This document shows positions 30,629-39,163 of a stretch of 48,064 bases of DNA, piece by piece. This DNA comes from an uncultured Gemmiger sp. (GTDB lineage Bacteria > Bacillota > Clostridia > Oscillospirales > Ruminococcaceae), in NCBI GenBank assembly GCA_949295035.1, contig CASFJO010000023.1, positions 1 to 48,064 on the forward strand. Direction: 5' to 3'. The first letter of the stretch is position 1, and every line of letters starts with the position of its first letter. The position numbers and the translations under genes were made by a program. The notes beneath the pieces were generated by a model that did not search any database, was not told where the DNA came from, and worked only from the letters and a program-made list of their open reading frames with translations.

Positions 30629-30719
30629 GGAGACGTATCGAAGTGGTCGTAACGAGAACGACTCGAAATCGTTTTGTCCAGAGATGGGCACGTGGGTTCG
30701 AATCCCACCGTCTCCGCCA
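30629..30719 (+). tRNA. tRNA-Ser (CGA)
   Basis: A 91-nt gene with acceptor GGAGACG/CGTCTCC, anticodon stem AACGA/TCGTT around CTCGAAA (anticodon CGA), a long variable arm typical of Ser tRNAs, T-arm GTGGG TTCGAAT CCCAC and encoded CCA. The adjoining integrase indicates that its 3' end served as the attachment site for the element to the right. Confidence 0.93.
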
Positions 30720-30722
30720 GAA

Positions 30723-30764
30723 AATGGCGCTATGTCAAGGTTTATCGGCATAGCGCCGTTTTTT
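30723..30764 (+). terminator. Terminator after tRNA-Ser
   Basis: AATGGCGCTATG (30723-30734) pairs with CATAGCGCCGTT (30749-30760), then TTTT. It starts four bases after the tRNA CCA. Confidence 0.85.
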
Positions 30765-30796
30765 ATCGTCCTGACGCCGACAGCATTTTTTCTGCC

Positions 30797-31984
30797 TTAC
30801 CACCGGCTTTCCGGCAGTTCCTCGGGCAGCGCCAGGGCTTTTTCCATTGTGGCGGCGCTCAGCTGTTTCGACTGGGAATCCAGATGGGCGTAGATGTTCG
30901 CCGTGGTGGAGATGTCGCTGTGGCCCAGCCATTCCTGAATCTGCTTCATGGGCACCCCCTGTTTCAGCAGCAGGCTGGCACAGGAGTGGCGCAGATCGTG
31001 GAAGCGGATATGTCGCAGACCATGTGCTTTCAGGAGCTTTCCAAAATTCTCGGAAACTGCATTGGGAAGAATGAGATTTCCCATCTCATCTACGAATAGA
31101 TATCCTTTGTATTTTTTGTTATAGCAGTTTCCGCAGAGCTGCTCGTTGTATTCCTGCTGCTCCTTCAACTCCTTCAGCCGCTGGACGAAACCCTCCACCA
31201 GCGGCAAAGTCCGCAGGCTGGACTTGGTCTTGGCCCGGTCGGCCTGGATGAGAACGTGCTTACCTTCAATATTCGCACTGGTGACGATGTGACGGATGGT
31301 CAGCGTTCCAGCCTCAAAGTCGATGGCGTCCCACCGCAGGCCCAGCACTTCGCTGCGGCGCAGTCCATAAAATGCCGCAAATTGGATGATCAGTTCCAGA
31401 CGACTGCCTCGGGCCGCCTGAAATAACTTCTCCATCTCCTGGGCAGTATAGTAAGATGCCATATACTTCTGCAGTTTAGGCCGCTCTACTTTGTCCACTG
31501 GGTTGCCGGGGATGAGATCCAGCTTTACCGCATACTTCAAAGCCTTGTGCATGTTAGCATGCTGCTTGATCACGCTTGTGGCTTTGAGGGTCTCCAACTC
31601 ATGAAGGTAGAAACTTTGGATATGGCTGGCTTTCAATCCTCCCAGCGTGATGCCGGTAGGCTCGAAGTACGGCACGATATGGTCCTTCACGTTGAAGCAG
31701 TAGCTGGACCAGGTGGTTGGCTCCACAGAAGTACGGATGATTTTCAGCCAGTAGAGCATATAATCACTGAACAGCATGTCTGGACTTAGGTCAGTGGAAC
31801 GATCAGGTGCAGGCGGGGTAAAGCTATGGCGGGCCTGACGCAGTAGATCCTCGGCCTTTTTCTTGTTGCCTTTCACCGGCAGCCCGGTACCCTGCCATTT
31901 CTGCACCCGCTTGCCGTTGGGGCCTTTGTAGCTGAGCACAATATAAAAATATCCGTTTTTTTCGGTCAGTCGACCAGATACCAT
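30797..31984 (-). CDS. int: Site-specific tyrosine recombinase (integrase)
   Basis: A 395-residue phage/ICE-type integrase. The N-terminal arm-binding domain has GRLTEKNGYFYIVLSYKGPN; a SAM-like core-binding domain follows (TTWSSYCFNVKDHIVPYFEP). Catalytic residues are in GLRRSEVLGLRW (Arg), FHDLRHSCASLLLKQG (His-x-x-Arg), EWLGHSDISTT (His) and IYAHLD (Tyr nucleophile). ATG 31984 is preferred over ATG 31990 because the AGGAGGA ribosome site would abut the latter. The gene ends 77 bp from tRNA-Ser, the usual arrangement for a tRNA-targeting element. Confidence 0.95.
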   Translation of the reverse strand: MVSGRLTEKNGYFYIVLSYKGPNGKRVQKWQGTGLPVKGNKKKAEDLLRQARHSFTPPAPDRSTDLSPDMLFSDYMLYWLKIIRTSVEPTTWSSYCFNVKDHIVPYFEPTGITLGGLKASHIQSFYLHELETLKATSVIKQHANMHKALKYAVKLDLIPGNPVDKVERPKLQKYMASYYTAQEMEKLFQAARGSRLELIIQFAAFYGLRRSEVLGLRWDAIDFEAGTLTIRHIVTSANIEGKHVLIQADRAKTKSSLRTLPLVEGFVQRLKELKEQQEYNEQLCGNCYNKKYKGYLFVDEMGNLILPNAVSENFGKLLKAHGLRHIRFHDLRHSCASLLLKQGVPMKQIQEWLGHSDISTTANIYAHLDSQSKQLSAATMEKALALPEELPESRW

Positions 31985-32112
31985 GGACATTCCTCCTTTG
32001 GATTATTGGTGTTCTCCGGGTCCGATACAAGAATACCCGGAAGTTGCCTCGAAAGCTATTCACAAAACTGCACAAGGTCACGCGCCTGGAATGGGTACAT
32101 ATCCACCAGACT

Positions 32113-32144
32113 GCCCGCGCCGGTTTGCCCGGCGCGGGCGTTTT
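32113..32144 (+). terminator. GC-rich hairpin with T-tract between int and relaxase
   Basis: GCCCGCGCCGG/CCGGCGCGGGC (32113-32139) followed by gtttt on the plus strand, four bases from the relaxase stop. The T-tract suits plus-strand transcription although the flanking genes are on the minus strand; it may instead be a processing or transfer-related stem. Confidence 0.45.
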
Positions 32145-32148
32145 GGCT

Positions 32149-33522
32149 TTAGCGGATTCGGTCTTTGTCCCGGTGTTTCTGGCGGGGCTTGTCCTGCTCC
32201 TGCTGGCGGCGGTATTCCTCATGGCAGGCGGCGGTCTTTTCCACTTTTTCGATGATGCGTTTGGCGGCTGCGTCCTCTTTGCGCAGGGCGGCGATTTGGC
32301 GGGTCAGTTCCGCCCGCCTTTGGGCTACTCCGGGCGGCGGCTCCTTCCACCGCAGTTGCCGGGCGCAGTCCGCCCGTTCTTTGAAGAGGGCGGTGATTTG
32401 CCCGGCCAGAACTTCCCGGTGGGCTTTTACCTCCGCCACCGTGGAAAAGCCCCGCTCACTGGTCAGGTGCAGTTCCTCCAGTGTCTTGTCGATGTCCCGC
32501 CACAGGGCATTGATCTCCGGCCAGTTCACTCGCGGCGCGGGCCGCTTCGGGTAGATGCCCAGCTGGTAGCAGTAGTAGAGATACAGCCGGAAAAGGCTGT
32601 TCGTTTGGCCGGTCAGCGGGCCTTTGCAGCGGCAGCGGCGCGGGGCTGGCCTGGGCCGTGGCACGGGCCGCAGGCTGTACTTCGGGTTGAAATTCAGATC
32701 ATAGAAGTGGGGACCGTACCGGGCAAAGTTTTTGGCCAGCGCCCGCTCCAGGGCGGGCCAGTCGTATTCCGCCCCCAGCCGGTACACCCGCACCGCCCGG
32801 CCGCCGTCCAGCGAACGGAGGGTGGCGTACTTGCGCCCTTCCTCCCGCCGCCAGAGATACCCCTGCTGCCGCAGCACCCGTGCAAAGTCCCGCTCGGTGC
32901 TGGTCTGGGCCAGAGCCTTGCGAATGGCCCGGCGCATCGCCTCGTACCGGGTCTGCCCCTCGCCCTGGTAGAGCGGCCGGGGCTTTTTGCCGCCGGGCTG
33001 CTGAATCACGGAGAGGGCGTGTTCCCGGCACAGCTGGTCGGACACCCGGCGCATCTCCCGGTATTGGTCCCGCCGCTGCTCGTATTTCTTGCCATCCACA
33101 TAGGACACCGCATTGATGACGAAGTGGTTGTGCAGGCAGCCGGTGTTCAAATGAGTGGCCACCAGCACCTGGAACCGCCCGCCCCACACCCGGCGGGCCA
33201 ACTCCACCCCGATGGCGTGACACTGCTCCGGGGTCACCTCCCCGGGCTTGAAACTCTGGTAGGCGTGCATGGCCACCACTCCCTCGGTTTTGCCGAACTG
33301 CTCCTGCACCGCCCGCATCTCCGCCCAGGCAGTCCCCGGGCGGCAGTGGATGCCGCTCACCAGCTGGGCCGTTTCCTGTAAAGTGGTCTTGGCATCGTTC
33401 TCCGCGTAATGCAGCGCCTGGGCAAGGCCGCTGTACTCGGTCTTGTCCGGGTTGGCGGCGTAGTCCACCACCCGGCGCAGGCTGTCCCGCACCGGCCAGA
33501 TCTTAGTGGTCGCCAGAGGCAT
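32149..33522 (-). CDS. Relaxase/mobilization nuclease (MobA/VirD2-like, MOBP type)
   Basis: A 457-residue relaxase that would nick oriT and pilot the transferred strand. The N-terminal region shows VSGIHCRPGTAWAEM, HAYQSFKPGEVTPEQ, and the metal-binding histidines in ATHLNTGCLHNHFVINAVSY, followed by DGKKYEQRRDQYREMR. The C-terminal ~130 residues are basic and helical (HREVLAGQITALFKERAD). The start overlaps the MobC-like gene by 20 bp; GGAAGGAGG directly abuts the ATG, so initiation slightly downstream is possible. Confidence 0.9.
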   Translation of the reverse strand: MPLATTKIWPVRDSLRRVVDYAANPDKTEYSGLAQALHYAENDAKTTLQETAQLVSGIHCRPGTAWAEMRAVQEQFGKTEGVVAMHAYQSFKPGEVTPEQCHAIGVELARRVWGGRFQVLVATHLNTGCLHNHFVINAVSYVDGKKYEQRRDQYREMRRVSDQLCREHALSVIQQPGGKKPRPLYQGEGQTRYEAMRRAIRKALAQTSTERDFARVLRQQGYLWRREEGRKYATLRSLDGGRAVRVYRLGAEYDWPALERALAKNFARYGPHFYDLNFNPKYSLRPVPRPRPAPRRCRCKGPLTGQTNSLFRLYLYYCYQLGIYPKRPAPRVNWPEINALWRDIDKTLEELHLTSERGFSTVAEVKAHREVLAGQITALFKERADCARQLRWKEPPPGVAQRRAELTRQIAALRKEDAAAKRIIEKVEKTAACHEEYRRQQEQDKPRQKHRDKDRIR

Positions 33523-33799
33523 CCTCCTTCCGCAGGAGGCTGTCCAGAAGACCTTCCCGACAGCGGCGGTACTCTTCCGCCAGAGGCGGGTCCAACCGGG
33601 CCAGCTGATCGGTCAGGTTGTCCATCCAGGTCAGGTAACTGAAAAACGCCTGGGGCGGATGGAACCGGGGCGTATACCCCAGCGCCCGCTGGCGCAAATA
33701 TTCCGACAGAGTCAGACCGCACCGGCCGGCCGCTGTTTGGATTCGTTGTTTCTCGGCGGGGCTCACCCGCACATTGAGGCCCACGCTTCTTGTTCTCAC
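33503..33799 (-). CDS. MobC-like relaxosome accessory protein
   Basis: A 98-residue basic protein with an RHH-type N-terminus (VGLNVRVSPAEKQRIQTAAG then LTLSEYLRQRALGY), as in MobC/plasmid mobilization proteins that help the relaxase melt oriT. The GTG start at 33799 has GGAGG seven bases upstream and overlaps the stop of the preceding ATPase gene (GTGA). Its own end overlaps the relaxase start, so the three genes are translationally linked. Confidence 0.8.
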   Translation of the reverse strand: MRTRSVGLNVRVSPAEKQRIQTAAGRCGLTLSEYLRQRALGYTPRFHPPQAFFSYLTWMDNLTDQLARLDPPLAEEYRRCREGLLDSLLRKEDASGDH

Positions 33800-34959
33800 A
33801 AGGCCACCTCCGCACGGGGGTTCGGGGCGCTCCCCGTACCGGCGAAGGGTTGCCCGGCGGCAACACAAAGCCCATGCTTGTTACCCCGAAGCGCCTGCCG
33901 TGACGACGATGACGGTACTGACGGTGTTTCCGGGATACCCCCGCCGTCCGGGGGTGTGCCGGTTTTGTCGTCATTCGCGTCATCACCGTCATACCAGAGC
34001 CGAAGCTGCCGGGCACTGGCGGTGCGGCGGCTCTCGCAGCGGATACCCAGGGGCGCCAGGTCGGTGGGATAAAATTCCACCAGCTTGCGGGTCAGCTGGT
34101 TGGGCTGCACGTCGGCAATGCCGGCGGCGGCCAGCAGTTCGGTGGAGGTGCCCTGCCAGCACTTCTGCCGCTGAACAAACGCGGCCACCGCCCACACGCA
34201 GGCGGGCACAGCTCGCTGGGCCATCTGCTCGGCACGTTCTTCCTCGATCAGCCCCCAGATGCATCCCTCGCTTTGCAGGTGGAGAGTGCGACTGTCCATG
34301 TCCCGACCGGTCACCAGCAGGCGGGCAGTGTTGCTCATACGCTGGCGCTGCAGCAGCCAGATGGTATCGGCGGCGCCCATCAGGCCGTTGGAGCCGGAAA
34401 TTTGCTGGAACGGGTCGGCGGCGCCCTGTTTGCGCAGATGATGCACCAGTAGCAGGGCAATGTTGTGGCGGTCAGCCAGGGCTTTCAGCACGCTCATGTC
34501 CTGGTAGTCACTGGCGTAGATGCCGGTGGTCGGATCGGCCTCACGGACTTTTTGAAGCGTGTCGATGATAATCAGACCCGTTTCGGGGTGCCGGGTCAGA
34601 AAGGTTTCGATCTGTCGCTCCAGCCCCTGCCCGATGGCCTCGCAGGCGGTCTGGAAGTAGAGCCGGTCGGGAGCGGCATCCTCGGTCAGGCGGAACAGGC
34701 GGTTCTGGATGCGGGCGTATGTATCTTCCAAACACAGATACAGCACCGTCTGGGCGGGAACAATTCGGCCCCAGAATTCGCCGCCCTGGCTAAGCTGCAG
34801 GCTCAGCCACAGGCAGAGCCAACTTTTGCCGCTTTTGCTGGCACCGGCCAGCAGCGCCAGCCCGGTAGGCAGCAAATCGGGAATAAACCACCGCACCGGC
34901 GGCAGCGGAGTGGACAGCAAGGTTTGCGCATCAATGGGTTCGAATTTCGTCAAAAGCAT
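33796..34959 (-). CDS. RepA-like AAA (RecA-fold) ATPase
   Basis: A 387-residue protein with Walker A GASKSGKSWLCLWLSLQL (about residues 38-45 for the loop), CLEDTYARIQNRL, Walker B GLIIIDTLQKVRE and LLLVHHLRKQGAADPFQQISGS, matching the hexameric RepA/AAA_25 helicases of plasmids and integrative elements. The C-terminal ~130 residues look like a winged-helix region followed by a disordered tail. ATG 34959 has AAAGGAG. It probably unwinds the element's replication origin; the tandem-repeat block nearby is a candidate target. Confidence 0.85.
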   Translation of the reverse strand: MLLTKFEPIDAQTLLSTPLPPVRWFIPDLLPTGLALLAGASKSGKSWLCLWLSLQLSQGGEFWGRIVPAQTVLYLCLEDTYARIQNRLFRLTEDAAPDRLYFQTACEAIGQGLERQIETFLTRHPETGLIIIDTLQKVREADPTTGIYASDYQDMSVLKALADRHNIALLLVHHLRKQGAADPFQQISGSNGLMGAADTIWLLQRQRMSNTARLLVTGRDMDSRTLHLQSEGCIWGLIEEERAEQMAQRAVPACVWAVAAFVQRQKCWQGTSTELLAAAGIADVQPNQLTRKLVEFYPTDLAPLGIRCESRRTASARQLRLWYDGDDANDDKTGTPPDGGGIPETPSVPSSSSRQALRGNKHGLCVAAGQPFAGTGSAPNPRAEVAL

Positions 34960-35137
34960 TTCTCCTTTTCGGTTGGTTTGTTGGATGGGGCGGGACGCGG
35001 CCACAGCGGCCCCAAACAGGCCCGCAAAACGGCCTTGACCCCGGCGCGGGGGAAAACACACCTGCACCGCCTGTCAGGCCCCGCACAGGGCGAACACCGG
35101 GCGGACAGCGGCAAGGGGCGTTTTGGCGCGCTCTGGG

Positions 35138-35380
35138 TCAGGAGCCGGCGGCCCGGGCGGCGGGCTGCACGCCGTTCTCCACCACATAGCGGATCACGTT
35201 GATCTTGGGGATCTTGTAGGCGTTGCCCAGCTTGAGGCCCCGGATGCTGCCGTCTGTCAGCAGGTCGTAGGCTGCGTGGCGGCTGATGCCCAGCATGACC
35301 TGCAGCTGGCGCACCGTCACGATGTCGGGATAGTCGGCGAACAACAATTTGTAAAGGGTCTGGATGTCAAAATTCTTCAT
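35138..35380 (-). CDS. Excisionase-type HTH protein
   Basis: An 80-residue protein with the MerR-like HTH_17/excisionase fold: YPDIVTVRQLQVMLGISRHA, AAYDLLTDGSIRGLKLGNAY and KIPKINVIRYV. Such proteins direct excision or regulate the element. It is first in the minus-strand mobility operon, about 180 bp before the ATPase gene. The C-terminal tail (QPAARAAGS) is unstructured. The role as Xis is inferred from family and context. Confidence 0.8.
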   Translation of the reverse strand: MKNFDIQTLYKLLFADYPDIVTVRQLQVMLGISRHAAYDLLTDGSIRGLKLGNAYKIPKINVIRYVVENGVQPAARAAGS

Positions 35381-35502
35381 CGATCACCTGCTCTCAAAAG
35401 TTTTCACGGCGCAAAAAACGCGCCTGGGCGGATAAACGGACAGCGGACGCCGGCCGGAAGCGGCGGTACCCCTCCTTTCTGTGAGGTTGATGGGCAGCGG
35501 CC

Positions 35503-35632
35503 AAGGATTCCTTATGCAGGATTCCTTGTTTCGGATGTGACGGGATTCCAGGGTTCCTTATGTAGGGTTCCCCATGCCGCGGCGGGCGGCAGAGTTTACC
35601 CGAACAAGGAACCCATCATGCAGGGTTCCTTG
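35503..35632. repeat. Short TTCCTTATG repeats and hairpin left of the tandem array
   Basis: GGATTCCTTATGCAGGATTC (from 35505) and GGGTTCCTTATGTAGGGTTC (from 35541) are related direct repeats. They are followed by a perfect hairpin CAAGGAACCC (35605-35614) / GGGTTCCTTG (35623-35632) whose loop is ATCATGCA. Confidence 0.75.
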
Positions 35633-35651
35633 ACGCGGTGTTCTGGCTGGG

Positions 35652-36070
35652 AAAAAAGTCCTCCCATTATATACCAGTAGCTGAGACCCCCTCAGAATTT
35701 CACCCTTCCAAAAATAAATTCGGAAGTTTGTCAAATTTGACGGGGAGTCAACCACAGAAAAAGTCCCCTCGTTATATATCAGTAACACGGACCCCCGAAA
35801 ATGAAACACCCCCCAAGAAAAAACGGTAAAGTTCGGTAGTTTTGACGATGCCGCGGGTCATGAAAAAAATACCCTCCATCTTATATAAGTTACAAAGACG
35901 CCTGAAAACGAAACACCTTCCAAAAAAATAAAAAAAGTTTGGCCATATTGACGGTTCCACGCATCATGAAAAAAATACCCTCTATCTTATATAAGTTACA
36001 CAGACCCCTCAAAACGGCCACCCTTCCAAAAATAAATTTGTAAGTTTGGCAATTTTGATATATCTTATGG
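35652..36070. repeat. Four tandem ~106-bp imperfect repeats (iteron-like)
   Basis: Units start at about 35652, 35758, 35863 and 35969. Each runs A-tract, ccctc, a TTATATAAGTTACA-like core, gacccc, aaaacgaaacacc, ttccaaaaataaa, and ends agtttggc-attttgacg. Units 3 and 4 are most alike; units 1 and 2 have diverged. The period (105-106) is not a multiple of three, and stops fall in all frames, so it is not a coding repeat. Confidence 0.88.
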
Positions 36071-36092
36071 CCCCCAACGCTTTTCCCGTCCA

Positions 36093-36118
36093 CAAGGAAG
36101 CCTAATTAGGCTTCCTTG
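36093..36118. repeat. 26-bp perfect palindrome right of the tandem array
   Basis: CAAGGAAGCCTAA and its reverse complement meet at 36105/36106. The outer CAAGGAA...TTCCTTG matches the hairpin on the left side of the array (35605-35632), so related palindromes bracket the four repeats. Confidence 0.85.
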
Positions 36119-36150
36119 TCGGGTCGAAAGAGCAAATTGTAAGCAAAAGT

Positions 36151-36175
36151 GGAAGCCTTATTAGGCTTCCTTTTT
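36151..36175 (+). terminator. Terminator-like hairpin sharing the palindrome stem
   Basis: GGAAGCCT tatt AGGCTTCC followed by TTTTTCTTTTT. The stem repeats the inner part of the palindrome at 36093-36118. Confidence 0.7.
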
Positions 36176-36244
36176 CTTTTTGCGGAGATCTGCCAGTGAC
36201 GCTCACCAGCTGCGAAATACCCTGAGCACAGTTTCCCGCTGCGG

Positions 36245-36565
36245 CTACATGAACAGCGCAGCGCCGGCCAAAAGAACAGCGCCTGCAGCCCGCAAACCTC
36301 GCAAAACAGCCATTCCAGCCGTATATCCACCGTCCCAAAGCCTGCGAAAGATACAGTTTGTGATACACCCAGCATACAGAGCAAAATTCGCGGCCAGGCC
36401 ATCGCCGTCCATGGGGATTTGGCGCTTTGTTCGTTCCAGCGGGTAATACAGTACATAGGTCCTCCTTTTCGTGACCGGGAGAAGGACCGCCGAAAACCAT
36501 GTGAGCAGGGCAACAAAAAGAGCCGCATGAACAAAGGCTTCGGGAAAACCCAAACACCTGCTCAC
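36245..36565 (-). CDS. Possible small membrane protein
   Basis: An open frame of 106 residues with a hydrophobic N-terminal half (AFVHAALFVALLTWFSAVLL), a charged middle (KRRTYVLYYPLERTKRQIP) and a second hydrophobic end (VLRGLRAAGAVLLAGAALFM). No family is recognised. The GTG start at 36565 has no clear ribosome site, and two overlapping minus-strand frames cover the same DNA, so it may be spurious or a gene remnant. Confidence 0.35.
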   Translation of the reverse strand: MSRCLGFPEAFVHAALFVALLTWFSAVLLPVTKRRTYVLYYPLERTKRQIPMDGDGLAANFALYAGCITNCIFRRLWDGGYTAGMAVLRGLRAAGAVLLAGAALFM

Positions 36566-36690
36566 ACGGCCCTGGTAGTCTTGGCTTCGAAAAGCCAGCT
36601 TCTGATCACTCGTTGTTTGCTGTTCAGTTGTGAATCGTATGTTGGCTATGACCTCCGATTCATGAGTTTAGAATAGCATAAATATAGAAA

Positions 36691-36913
36691 ATCGCAATAG
36701 TGCTGAGCAAAGGTTCTTCGGAATTTATCAATTACCAACTTTACTTACAAAAAAGGAACATCAGTTGATGGGATATGGCAGAATTGTGATATAAAGCTAA
36801 TTATGCGACTGTATTAATCCGATTTAATGTACATCAAATAAGATATAATTTTAATAGACAAGTCGCAACTAATGCGTAGCTTATATAGGTAGTGTGGAAG
36901 GAGAGTCGCAATA
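36691..36913. promoter_or_regulatory. Repeated AGTCGCA operator-like words
   Basis: ATCGCAATAG (36691), inverted TTATGCGACT (36801), AGTCGCAACT (36861) and AGTCGCAATA (36904) share a TCGCA core with A/T flanks. They lie 30-250 bp upstream of the promoter of the HTH regulator gene and are candidate binding sites for it. Confidence 0.4.
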
Positions 36914-37019: not shown

Positions 37020-37220
37020 ATGGGAGTTAACTATAAGCGGCTTTGGAAACTCTTGATTGACAAAGACATGACAAAAACTGATTTGCGAAAAAAGACAGAT
37101 ATTGCCACAAGCACAATTGCTAAAATGAGCCGAAACGAATTTGTTTCGCTTGAGGTTCTTGTTCGAATTTGTTATGTCCTTGACTGTGAATTAAGTGATA
37201 TAGCAGAAATTGAAAGGTAA
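37020..37220 (+). CDS. Cro/C1-type HTH regulator (R-M controller-like)
   Basis: A 66-residue XRE-type DNA-binding protein: YKRLWKLLIDKDMTKTDLRK, then KTDIATSTIAKMSRNEF and LEVLVRICYVLDCELSDIAE. Its size and place 15 bp before a cytosine methyltransferase fit a controller (C) protein that times expression of restriction-modification genes. A weak GAGGTG ribosome site precedes ATG 37020. The cognate restriction gene appears to be lost. Confidence 0.85.
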   Translation: MGVNYKRLWKLLIDKDMTKTDLRKKTDIATSTIAKMSRNEFVSLEVLVRICYVLDCELSDIAEIER

Positions 37221-37235
37221 AGGGTATAAAGACTA

Positions 37236-38297
37236 ATGAGCAAGAAAATTATAGCTGTTAGCCTGTTTTCTGGCGCAGGTGGTTTAGACGTAGCCAGTTT
37301 TATGGCAGGCATTCCAGTTGCTTCTAGCACTGATTTCGATGCCGACTGTATTCAAACCTTAAAAATGAATGACCTATATAAAAATAGTGAAATCATCCAA
37401 GGGGATCTTCACAAGATTGATAGCCAGGTTTTTCAAGACATCGTTGACCGTACACCACATGATAAATTCATCGTTATTGGAGGCGCTCCATGTCAACCGT
37501 TTTCAAAGGCGGGTTATTGGGTAGGAAATAATACGCGTCGAGGGATTAATGATCCACGTGCAACATTGGTAGATGAATATTTGCGTGTGGTTACGGATTT
37601 GCATCCTGACGGCTTTGTGTTTGAGAACGTCGAAAGTTTACTTCATCCCACAAATAAAACAATCGTAGATCGCTTCATAGAAATCATTACTGAACATGGC
37701 TATAAGTACAAAATCGTAAGGGCTAATGCACTTGACTATGGTGTCTCACAGCGCCGAAAAAGGTTGTTTATTATCGGGACAACCGGGGATTTCAAGGCGG
37801 ACGAACCAAGAAAAACTCATTGTCCACCTGATGAGTGTAAAAAAACAGGGCTGTTGCCGTATGTCCCAGTTGGTGAAGTAATTGCTGGCTTTGATGGGCC
37901 GGAATATTTTGAACCAGAAGAAAGAACTGAGGGGGGCACTTATTATGCTGACTTATGTGAAGTCCCCCCTGGAATGAATTATAAAGCACTGACCGCTTGG
38001 TATGGATACCCTAATCCTAAATTTGTGGCAGACAAAAGGTTCTGGAGTTTTCTATTAAAACTATCTCCTGACGTTCCTTCCTGGACAATTACCGCTCAAC
38101 CAGGGCCTTGGGTTGGACCATTCCATTGGGACAATAGAAGATTGCGAGTTCCTGAAATTGCCGCAATTCAATCTTTTCCAAGTAATTATAAATTTTTCGG
38201 TAATAGAAGATCCATTCAAAAACAAATCGGTAATGCAGTGCCCTCCCTTATGGGCAAAGCGATGATAGAATTTCTGAAAGAGAGCATCGATGAATGA
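37236..38297 (+). CDS. DNA (cytosine-5)-methyltransferase, intact
   Basis: A 353-residue C5 methyltransferase. Motif I is SLFSGAGGLDVASF, motif IV GGAPCQPFSKAG (catalytic Cys), motif VI FVFENVESLL, motif VIII SQRRKRLFIIG, and motifs IX-X are represented by RVPEIAAIQSFPSNYKFFGN and KQIGNAVPSLMGKA. It has all elements needed for activity; the target sequence cannot be read. The region is A/T-rich, unlike the chromosome. The stop overlaps the start of the next methyltransferase (ATGA), so the pair is coupled. Confidence 0.94.
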   Translation: MSKKIIAVSLFSGAGGLDVASFMAGIPVASSTDFDADCIQTLKMNDLYKNSEIIQGDLHKIDSQVFQDIVDRTPHDKFIVIGGAPCQPFSKAGYWVGNNTRRGINDPRATLVDEYLRVVTDLHPDGFVFENVESLLHPTNKTIVDRFIEIITEHGYKYKIVRANALDYGVSQRRKRLFIIGTTGDFKADEPRKTHCPPDECKKTGLLPYVPVGEVIAGFDGPEYFEPEERTEGGTYYADLCEVPPGMNYKALTAWYGYPNPKFVADKRFWSFLLKLSPDVPSWTITAQPGPWVGPFHWDNRRLRVPEIAAIQSFPSNYKFFGNRRSIQKQIGNAVPSLMGKAMIEFLKESIDE

Positions 38298-39163
38298 ATG
38301 TTTTAAGTATATTTTCCGGCGGTGGAGGAATTGACTGTGGCTTCAAAAAAGCGGGATATGATATTTGCTTTTCCACTGATTTTTGGCAGCCGGCATGCGA
38401 AACCCTTGAAAAAAATAGAGTTGGTAGACTAGTAAAATGTGCTGATATTCGGACAATCAACTATGCTGAGGAATTAGCAAAAATCGGAATGGCAGTGGAC
38501 GATATTGATGTTTTGGTGGGTGGCCCACCTTGTCCTGCATATTCAAAATCACGCTTTTACAGGAAAGACAAAAAGAGGGCGCTGGAGGACGAGAACTCTT
38601 TCACGTTATATGAGTATTTTAGAGCCCTGAAAGAAATTCGCCCTAAAGTGTTTTTCTTCGAAAATGTGTTTGGCTTTGTATACAAACCCCACAAAGCCGC
38701 TTTTGACCTTTTAAAGGAAAGGGCAAGCACGTTAGGCTATGAAATTAGTTACAAAGTAATTAATGCTGCAAATTACGGGGTTCCCCAAATTCGAGAACGC
38801 TTTATATGTGTTGGCGTGAAACGGGAGTATGGTAAAACTTTTGTGTTTCCAGCAGAAACTCACTACAATCCAGAAAAGATTAGCGGGAAAGCTACGAGAG
38901 GGAAAAAGCCTTGGGTAACTTGCGGCGATGCAATTGGTGACTTGGACTATGATTTGCCTGAAGATAAGGATATGCAGGCTGGGTCAAAACACAAGGATTT
39001 GCTTAAATTAGTGCCACCAGGTGATAATTATCTTTACTTCACCGCAGAACGTGGTTATCCTGAACCGATTTTCAAATGGAGATCTCGCTATTGGTCTTTC
39101 CTTTTGAAACTTTCACCAGAAAAGCCTTCTTGGACAATTCAAGCAATTTCTCGCAAGCAGTAA
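38294..39163 (+). pseudogene. Second DNA (cytosine-5)-methyltransferase, C-terminally truncated
   Basis: 289 residues with motif I SIFSGGGGIDCGF, motif IV GGPPCPAYSKSRF, motif VI FFFENVFGFV and VIII PQIRERFICVG, followed by the SFLLKLSPEKPSWTIQA segment seen in its neighbour (SFLLKLSPDVPSWTITA). It then ends in ISRKQ and stops, losing motifs IX and X (the QIGNAVP region, about 60 residues). Without these, activity is unlikely. The junction coincides with entry into an unrelated fragment, suggesting a deletion between two genes. Confidence 0.85.

Follow-up and report, generated by a model that had tools for sequence, protein, structure and literature searches.

Long-period, iteron-like repeats upstream of a RepA-like ATPase operon: a candidate replication origin or control region in a Gemmiger integrative mobilizable element

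In the IncQ-like replicons, which use a RepA helicase, RepC, and a RepB primase, as in RSF1010, the primase is often fused to MobA. The crr of the satellite phage P4 is a cis-acting replication region with long direct repeats of ~120 bp. Iterons are given as 17–22 bp, and up to 76 bp in R478, in passages of PMC4980987, where the second winged-helix domain of π is said to contact a GAG in the iteron. According to sections of PMC7433901, SGI1 is an integrative mobilizable element with int and xis that is excised and has an iteron origin, oriV, with four 17-bp iterons, deletion of which abolishes replication. The helicases of SaPI and SCCmec recognise their own short origin repeats, as stated in part of PMC7581432. 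A 2017 review noted that nobody had yet investigated how integrative mobilizable elements replicate once excised, though many of them encode RepA-like proteins (PMC5704250); the replication of SGI1 was studied after that review, as sections of PMC7433901 relate. In the open-access literature, a coverage outside which most subscription journals fall, we found no description of an array like the one reported here.

The window analysed is a stretch of 48 064 nucleotides from an uncultured Gemmiger sp. (contig CASFJO010000023.1, assembly GCA_949295035.1). It contains four direct repeats, 105–107 bp apart, at 35639–36061, reading on the − strand. Unit 1, the distal one, lies at 35957–36061, unit 2 at 35851–35955, unit 3 at 35744–35848, and unit 4, proximal to the HTH gene, at 35639–35743, all on the − strand; their cores start at 36001, 35895, 35788, and 35683, with spacings of 106, 107, and 105. 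The maximal self-match over 60 nt is 88% at an offset of 106, while dinucleotide shuffles (n = 100) reach at most 57% (z = 19.1), and none of the 100 equals the repetitiveness of the array. TRF reports a period of 106 over 35775–36016, a 99-nt repeat pair occurs at the same offset of 106 bp (35828/35934), and direct-repeat matches fall at 35652, 35757, and 35970. These results bear out a preliminary description of this DNA, which had noted four repeats with a period of ~106 bp about 270 bp from an excisionase-type gene (35380 to 35652, 272 bp). Its shared core stands in part: the repeats do share a core, but the form TTATATAAGTTACA is present in only two of the four units, the remaining two having TTATATATCAGTAAC and TTATATACCAGTAGC. 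Units 1 and 2 both carry the variant GTGTAAC..TATATAAGATAGAGGG, and unit 3 carries GTGTTAC..ATATAACGAGGGGAC; unit 4 has AGCTACTGGTATATAATGGGAGGAC and matches the shared motif at 9.2 bits.

The A+T content of the array is 60%, compared with 42% for the element part 30720–36700, and the A/T-richness noted previously is thus real. Its non-coding character is supported too: the period is not divisible by 3, the overlapping ORFs are short, and relatives conserve the DNA motif. These ORFs have at most 83 aa, except for one of 185 aa on the + strand, which is antisense to the HTH gene and ends at 35680. We rejected a coding repeat on the grounds that the period is no multiple of 3 and that there is no long or conserved ORF; the decayed coding repeat, raised at the outset as a competing explanation, finds no plausible frame. 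As in iteron origins, then, the repeats are direct, non-coding, A/T-rich, and in a single orientation. Across the window, Rfam gives only tRNAs at the gathering score; at a lax threshold there are six weak matches near the array, all below the gathering score. A blastn search of the array against 72 556 plasmid records gave no match.

The array lies 5′ of an operon for an HTH (excisionase-like) protein, an RSF1010-RepA-like ATPase, a NikA-like MobC, a relaxase, and an integrase, all on the − strand and adjoining a tRNA-Ser gene. The 80-aa HTH_17/excisionase-family DNA-binding protein (35138–35380, −) is 97–99% identical in five array relatives. The RepA-like (AAA_25) ATPase, a candidate replicative helicase, is at 33796–34959 (−), with the start codon taken from the sequence. 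The NikA-like MobC, a relaxosome accessory protein (33503–33868, −), the MobA/VirD2-type relaxase (32149–33522, −), and the tyrosine integrase (30797–31990, −) follow, and tRNA-Ser(CGA), the presumed attachment gene, is at 30629–30719 (+). The best solved match of the ATPase is RSF1010 RepA, ahead of RadA, with E = 1.4e-5 for the single sequence and 5e-7 with six sequences, which supports its previous designation as RepA-like. In the relaxase, Pfam shows a relaxase domain only and no primase domain, and none of the operon proteins was recognisable as an iteron-binding Rep of a known family. The integrase, relaxase, and NikA-like protein at tRNA-Ser suggest an integrative mobilizable element, a class with no full transfer machinery of its own; neither the far end nor the far attachment copy was found, which leaves room for transfer genes in the rest of the element.

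A leader on the − strand (35500–35638) parts the array from the HTH gene. It has repeated AAGGAAYCCTRCAT/GGAACCC blocks, is conserved in all six elements with an array of the same type (window-type elements), and at 35500–35640 folds strongly as a single strand (z = −4.5). There are five occurrences of the leader pattern in the window's genome, always here or upstream of a second RepA-like ATPase (G000:C87, L205). This second RepA-like element of the genome has three 46-bp leader-repeat copies ~500–640 nt before the ATPase, and no 105-bp array was found upstream of that ATPase. Immediately past the array, at 36092–36172, are a 28-bp palindrome and a terminator-like hairpin, and beyond them an HTH gene and then DNA methylase genes. 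At 37020–39163, a VanU-like HTH gene and two C5-methylase-like frames adjoin the array; another array, that of L193, also adjoins an HTH-plus-methylase-like frame.

Searched at the DNA level, nine of 297 family genomes gave matches, the window's own genome among them. Whole arrays are present in four further genomes (G008, G110, G152, and G221) and on a Gemmiger MAG contig (L016). A unit profile run on 396 genomes recovered the same set of arrays and, besides three weak matches, a single isolated unit of G127 (L031). The six window-type elements have 21 units in total, three or four each, at spacings of 103–107 bp, with unit variants shuffled across unit positions. The N-terminal 200 residues of the window ATPase are 69–70% identical to those of the other five, which are 96–97% identical to one another, and the remainder of the window module is 85–97% identical to its relatives. 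The N-terminal part is thus a diverged allele, and the pattern reads as a swap of ATPase alleles in which the array was not carried along.

With the iteron-type plasmid origins (RK2, F, P1, R6K, and IncQ), the array shares same-orientation repeats, A/T-rich non-coding DNA, and a position beside replication genes. The core also has GAG/GRG in the same sense as the π contact described in those passages, a likeness that is no test of homology. Unlike iterons, the units in these arrays are 55–134 bp long with one core each, and there is neither a nearby DnaA box nor a recognised iteron-binding Rep. Exact DnaA boxes (TTWTNCACA) number five in the window, with none from 23.7 kb to the end and none within 10 kb of the array; a DnaA box is not required of every iteron origin. 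The ATPase resembles RSF1010 RepA in sequence, but RepC is unrecognised here and the relaxase has no Pfam primase domain. P4 crr differs in having two copies, with several iterons per copy, and other proteins. SGI1 is similar as an integrative mobilizable element with an iteron origin, but has another Rep protein and short, adjacent iterons. The SaPI and SCCmec helicases belong to other families, and their origin is downstream of the helicase gene.

A 24-bp weight matrix was made from 30 cores of four loci (L104, L108, L102, and L059), chosen by eye and pattern, with the window-type units excluded. When each locus in turn was left out, there were 14, 5, 2, and 5 matches, respectively, upstream of the HTH gene on the gene strand; the rest of the gene strand gave 0–1, and the opposite strand upstream gave none. 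The ratios of forward to reverse upstream matches are 14:0 for L104, 5:0 for L108, 5:0 for L059, 7:0 for L157, 6:1 for L159, and 5:0 for L161. Among loci not used for training, L157 has seven matches, L159 six, L161 five, L162 three inside its array, and L158 two; in L193 and L194, four and two matches fit the repeat, and two more are far upstream in each. The 36 HTH-only loci scanned have 0 or 1 upstream match each, and none has a repeated motif. For the window-type units, also outside the training set, 15 of 21 score above the 99th background percentile of their own loci at the expected offset; the other six, including window units 1 and 2, fall below it, and with the threshold fixed at 8 bits no more than 7 of these 21 have matches at the expected place. 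A covariance-type model of the core (R2), with default filters, found no match in 26 + 36 sources, window-type loci included, so the core result depends on the weight-matrix scan. Unit spacings across families show no common helical phase (resultant 0.36 at 10.5 bp, n = 46). Since the motif recovers arrays of other periods and 15 of the 21 window-type units, the array is, on motif evidence, an iteron-like core at long, clade-specific spacing. The term 'iteron-like' was therefore apt: the 106-bp unit contains one ~24-bp core, and this core appears again at other periods, in a single orientation, 5′ of other RepA-like ATPase genes.

These other arrays came from a wider survey. The HTH profile matched 95 of 396 family genomes at 1e-9, and 60 stretches were taken for analysis; the ATPase profile matched 95 of 394 genomes of the order at 1e-20, and 60 stretches were taken from the matches listed. 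Further arrays at the same place 5′ of the genes were seen in L104, L108, L159, L161, L059, L157, and L162. L104 has 14 units over 0.8 kb, spaced mostly 52–68 bp; the spacings in L108, L159, and L161 are about 55–65 bp and also 110–116 bp, and the period of these three and of L104 is put at about 52–74 bp; L059 and L157 have a period of ~70 bp with seven units; and L162 has three units. L193 and L194 have a period of 134 bp with the final unit 30 nt before the ATPase gene, and no HTH of this profile was found in their genomes at E = 1e-3, which makes the ATPase, and not the HTH protein, the common partner there. L102 and L158 have weak arrays. L113, with a weak 86-bp pair (z = 3.2) whose cores look similar, was scored as having no array. 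Two candidates were rejected: in L125 the repeat score is high enough (z = 8.5), but the 79-bp pair behind it lacks the motif and is a leader hairpin of an unrelated kind, and L166 (z = 13.7) is a coding repeat. The non-coding repeats upstream of the ATPase in L213 are irregular, carry TTTGTCCATATA cores (z = 5.9), and may be a further family of arrays. Viral contigs yielded no relative of the ATPase and one of the HTH protein (L057).

An array is present in 13 (and weakly in 2 more) of 31 HTH+ATPase loci, and in 2 (and weakly, with other motifs, in 2 more) of 52 ATPase-only loci, 50 of which are without a clear array. With loci clustered at 80% ATPase identity, the counts are 5 of 14 HTH+ATPase clusters and 1 of 36 ATPase-only clusters; at 70% identity, 4 of 10 HTH+ATPase clusters have an array. 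The repeated motif is found in 0 of 28 HTH-only clusters versus 5 of 14 HTH+ATPase clusters (Fisher p = 0.002), with an upstream span of 2.8 kb for the ATPase set and 1.0–1.3 kb for the HTH-only set. Of the 74 loci with the HTH gene, 25 also have the ATPase, a figure that includes a second copy each of L099 and L101. Of the 49 HTH-only loci, 36 were used in the shuffle and motif tests; the other 13 (short upstream, copies, no neighbour seen) show no period. The counts do not include a further eight ATPase loci (L060–L067), which came from records of phages and plasmids and had no HTH match or, for L066, the HTH untried. On the ATPase tree, the array needs five changes (at least four forced), compared with a mean of 15.7 for shuffled labels; this tree includes a wrong-frame row for L023 (branch 8.2), omits L113 and L204, and scores L102 and L158 as having the array. 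The array thus follows descent, yet sits in separate parts of the tree, and since the tree is compatible with few gains, the array loci are not independent.

We favour, with middling confidence, the view that the array is a cis-acting replication origin or control region for the helicase system of the excised element. What we observed are the repeats and their conservation, the core, the array's location 5′ of HTH-ATPase-mob-int, the homology to RepA, and the association with the ATPase, and from them we infer binding, melting, and replication at the array. We counted in favour of an origin the same orientation and place, the one core at several periods, the ATPase association, the ATPase as common partner in L193 and L194, the RepA match, the A/T-richness, and the position of the array downstream of an intact promoter in L027 and L030; the 9 of 14 HTH+ATPase clusters without an array count against an essential origin. 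Also counted against it were the 50 ATPase-only loci with no clear array, the palindromes that some array-less elements have instead, the missing DnaA box and iteron-binding Rep, the lack of a common helical phase, the empty covariance-type search, the low scores of window units 1 and 2, the non-independence of the loci, and the promoter-like units of the window-type elements. The array would be an iteron-like region of an integrative mobilizable element, serving as its vegetative replication origin or as the control part of that origin. Each 105-bp unit may offer one ~24-bp core to a protein of the replication module, which could be the small HTH protein, the RepA-like helicase, or the two together. 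Once the element has excised, the protein-bound array could start the loading of helicase onto the A/T-rich DNA, and the circle would thereby be maintained and multiplied ahead of transfer or in the course of it; the array might also set copy number and exclusion between elements. The preliminary description had left the choice between a replication and a transfer origin; nothing in the array points to transfer, and replication is the better of the two, as a candidate. If the array is an origin, a common, uncharacterised group of gut Clostridia elements gains a defined origin, a core motif, and a testable helicase, and the origin design is one with binding sites ten helical turns apart.

The leading alternative, appreciably less probable than an origin, is that the array is a set of repeated operator or activator sites that control expression of HTH-ATPase-mob-int, with no origin role. 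The array immediately precedes the structured leader and the operon, its direction is that of the genes, and four of the six window-type elements lack a divergent repressor beside the array, with contig ends limiting two (L016 and L029). The sister elements L017, L018, L019, L023, and L025, in which the HTH protein is 58–74% identical, are without the array; immediately 5′ of their HTH gene lie a divergently oriented gene for a Cro/CI-type repressor and a promoter (TTGACG/TTGACA) with TTCGCA..TGCGAA sites. However, L027 and L030 keep a homologous repressor (41–47% identical) and the promoter (sigma-A matches of 11/12 at −1031 and 12/12 at −910, respectively), with the array still downstream, between promoter and HTH gene. 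Thus, the array is not simply a repressor-type promoter, nor is it the repressor's operator region itself; it was probably inserted into, or lost from, the promoter–gene interval. Furthermore, up to 14 sites in 0.8 kb (L104) are many for an operator. A lack of the array in homologous elements had been named as evidence against an origin; the five closest relatives have it, but the next sisters and 9 of the 14 HTH+ATPase clusters do not. Even as a regulatory sequence, the array would be a portable cis element and a marker of these modules.

A bolder version of the origin reading, tentative and rather unlikely as a whole, is that gut Oscillospirales integrative mobilizable elements have long-period iteron origins, with the 24-bp core at a clade-specific period of 55–134 bp. 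The core would be read directly by the RSF1010-RepA-like helicase and not by the HTH protein, so that the helicase would itself recognise the origin, and incompatibility between elements would depend on the type of unit and its spacing. The HTH protein is set aside as the reader because it is missing in L193 and L194.

It is improbable that the array consists of tandem promoters, each unit being a sigma-A promoter. Nine of the 21 window-type units have at least 9/12 promoter matches, versus 9% in shuffles, and three of them read TTGGCA-17-TATAAT (11/12). Against this, the other 12 are below 9/12, the other array families have 0 of 30 units at 9/12 (shuffles, 11%), and a simple scan of the window gave no promoter-like site on the − strand. 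Because 9 of the 21 units resemble sigma-A promoters, a mixed role is likely in the window-type elements.

Very doubtful is a partition (centromere-like) site for a small DNA-binding protein: direct repeats do adjoin the genes for a small HTH protein and an ATPase, but the ATPase is like RepA and RadA, not ParA, and no ParB-type partner was found among the operon proteins scanned. We give scarcely any weight to an array of RNA or single-strand hairpins acting as priming sites or regulatory RNA. Many cores have pairable pyrimidine and purine arms and unit 4 folds with z = −3.2, but shuffled sequences fold as well as units 2 and 3, the arm-swap test was negative (458 of 5000 swaps pair as well as the matched arms), and the alifold consensus energy is −0.31 kcal·mol−1. 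An origin of transfer or a neutral recombination relic, which the variable number of units (3–4) and the shuffling of variants between them might recommend, is just as improbable, since the MobC–relaxase pair is at least 1.7 kb from the array and the same core is kept across genera and recurs in elements of other periods.

Some other features were seen near these modules. The isolated window-type unit of G127 (L031:3996–4369) is directly upstream of a pemK RNA (RF02913, 53.8 bits), near a serine recombinase-like frame, and in L103, L111, and L113 pemK RNAs are likewise found close to the HTH gene. L017, L098, L103, L105, and L106, all without the array, have two or three palindromes, GTGAATCA-N5-TGATTCAC, between the HTH and ATPase genes, which are candidate alternative control or origin sites; L017, L103, and L105 are among the HTH+ATPase loci whose clusters lack the array. 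In the window, 36490–36625 has a long inverted repeat, GTGAGCAGG..CCTGCTCAC, followed by CCTGGTAGTCTTGGC, and a 29-base piece of this stretch recurs exactly beside the isolated unit of G127 (L006/L031). A transfer origin and a structured RNA are both conceivable for this inverted repeat.
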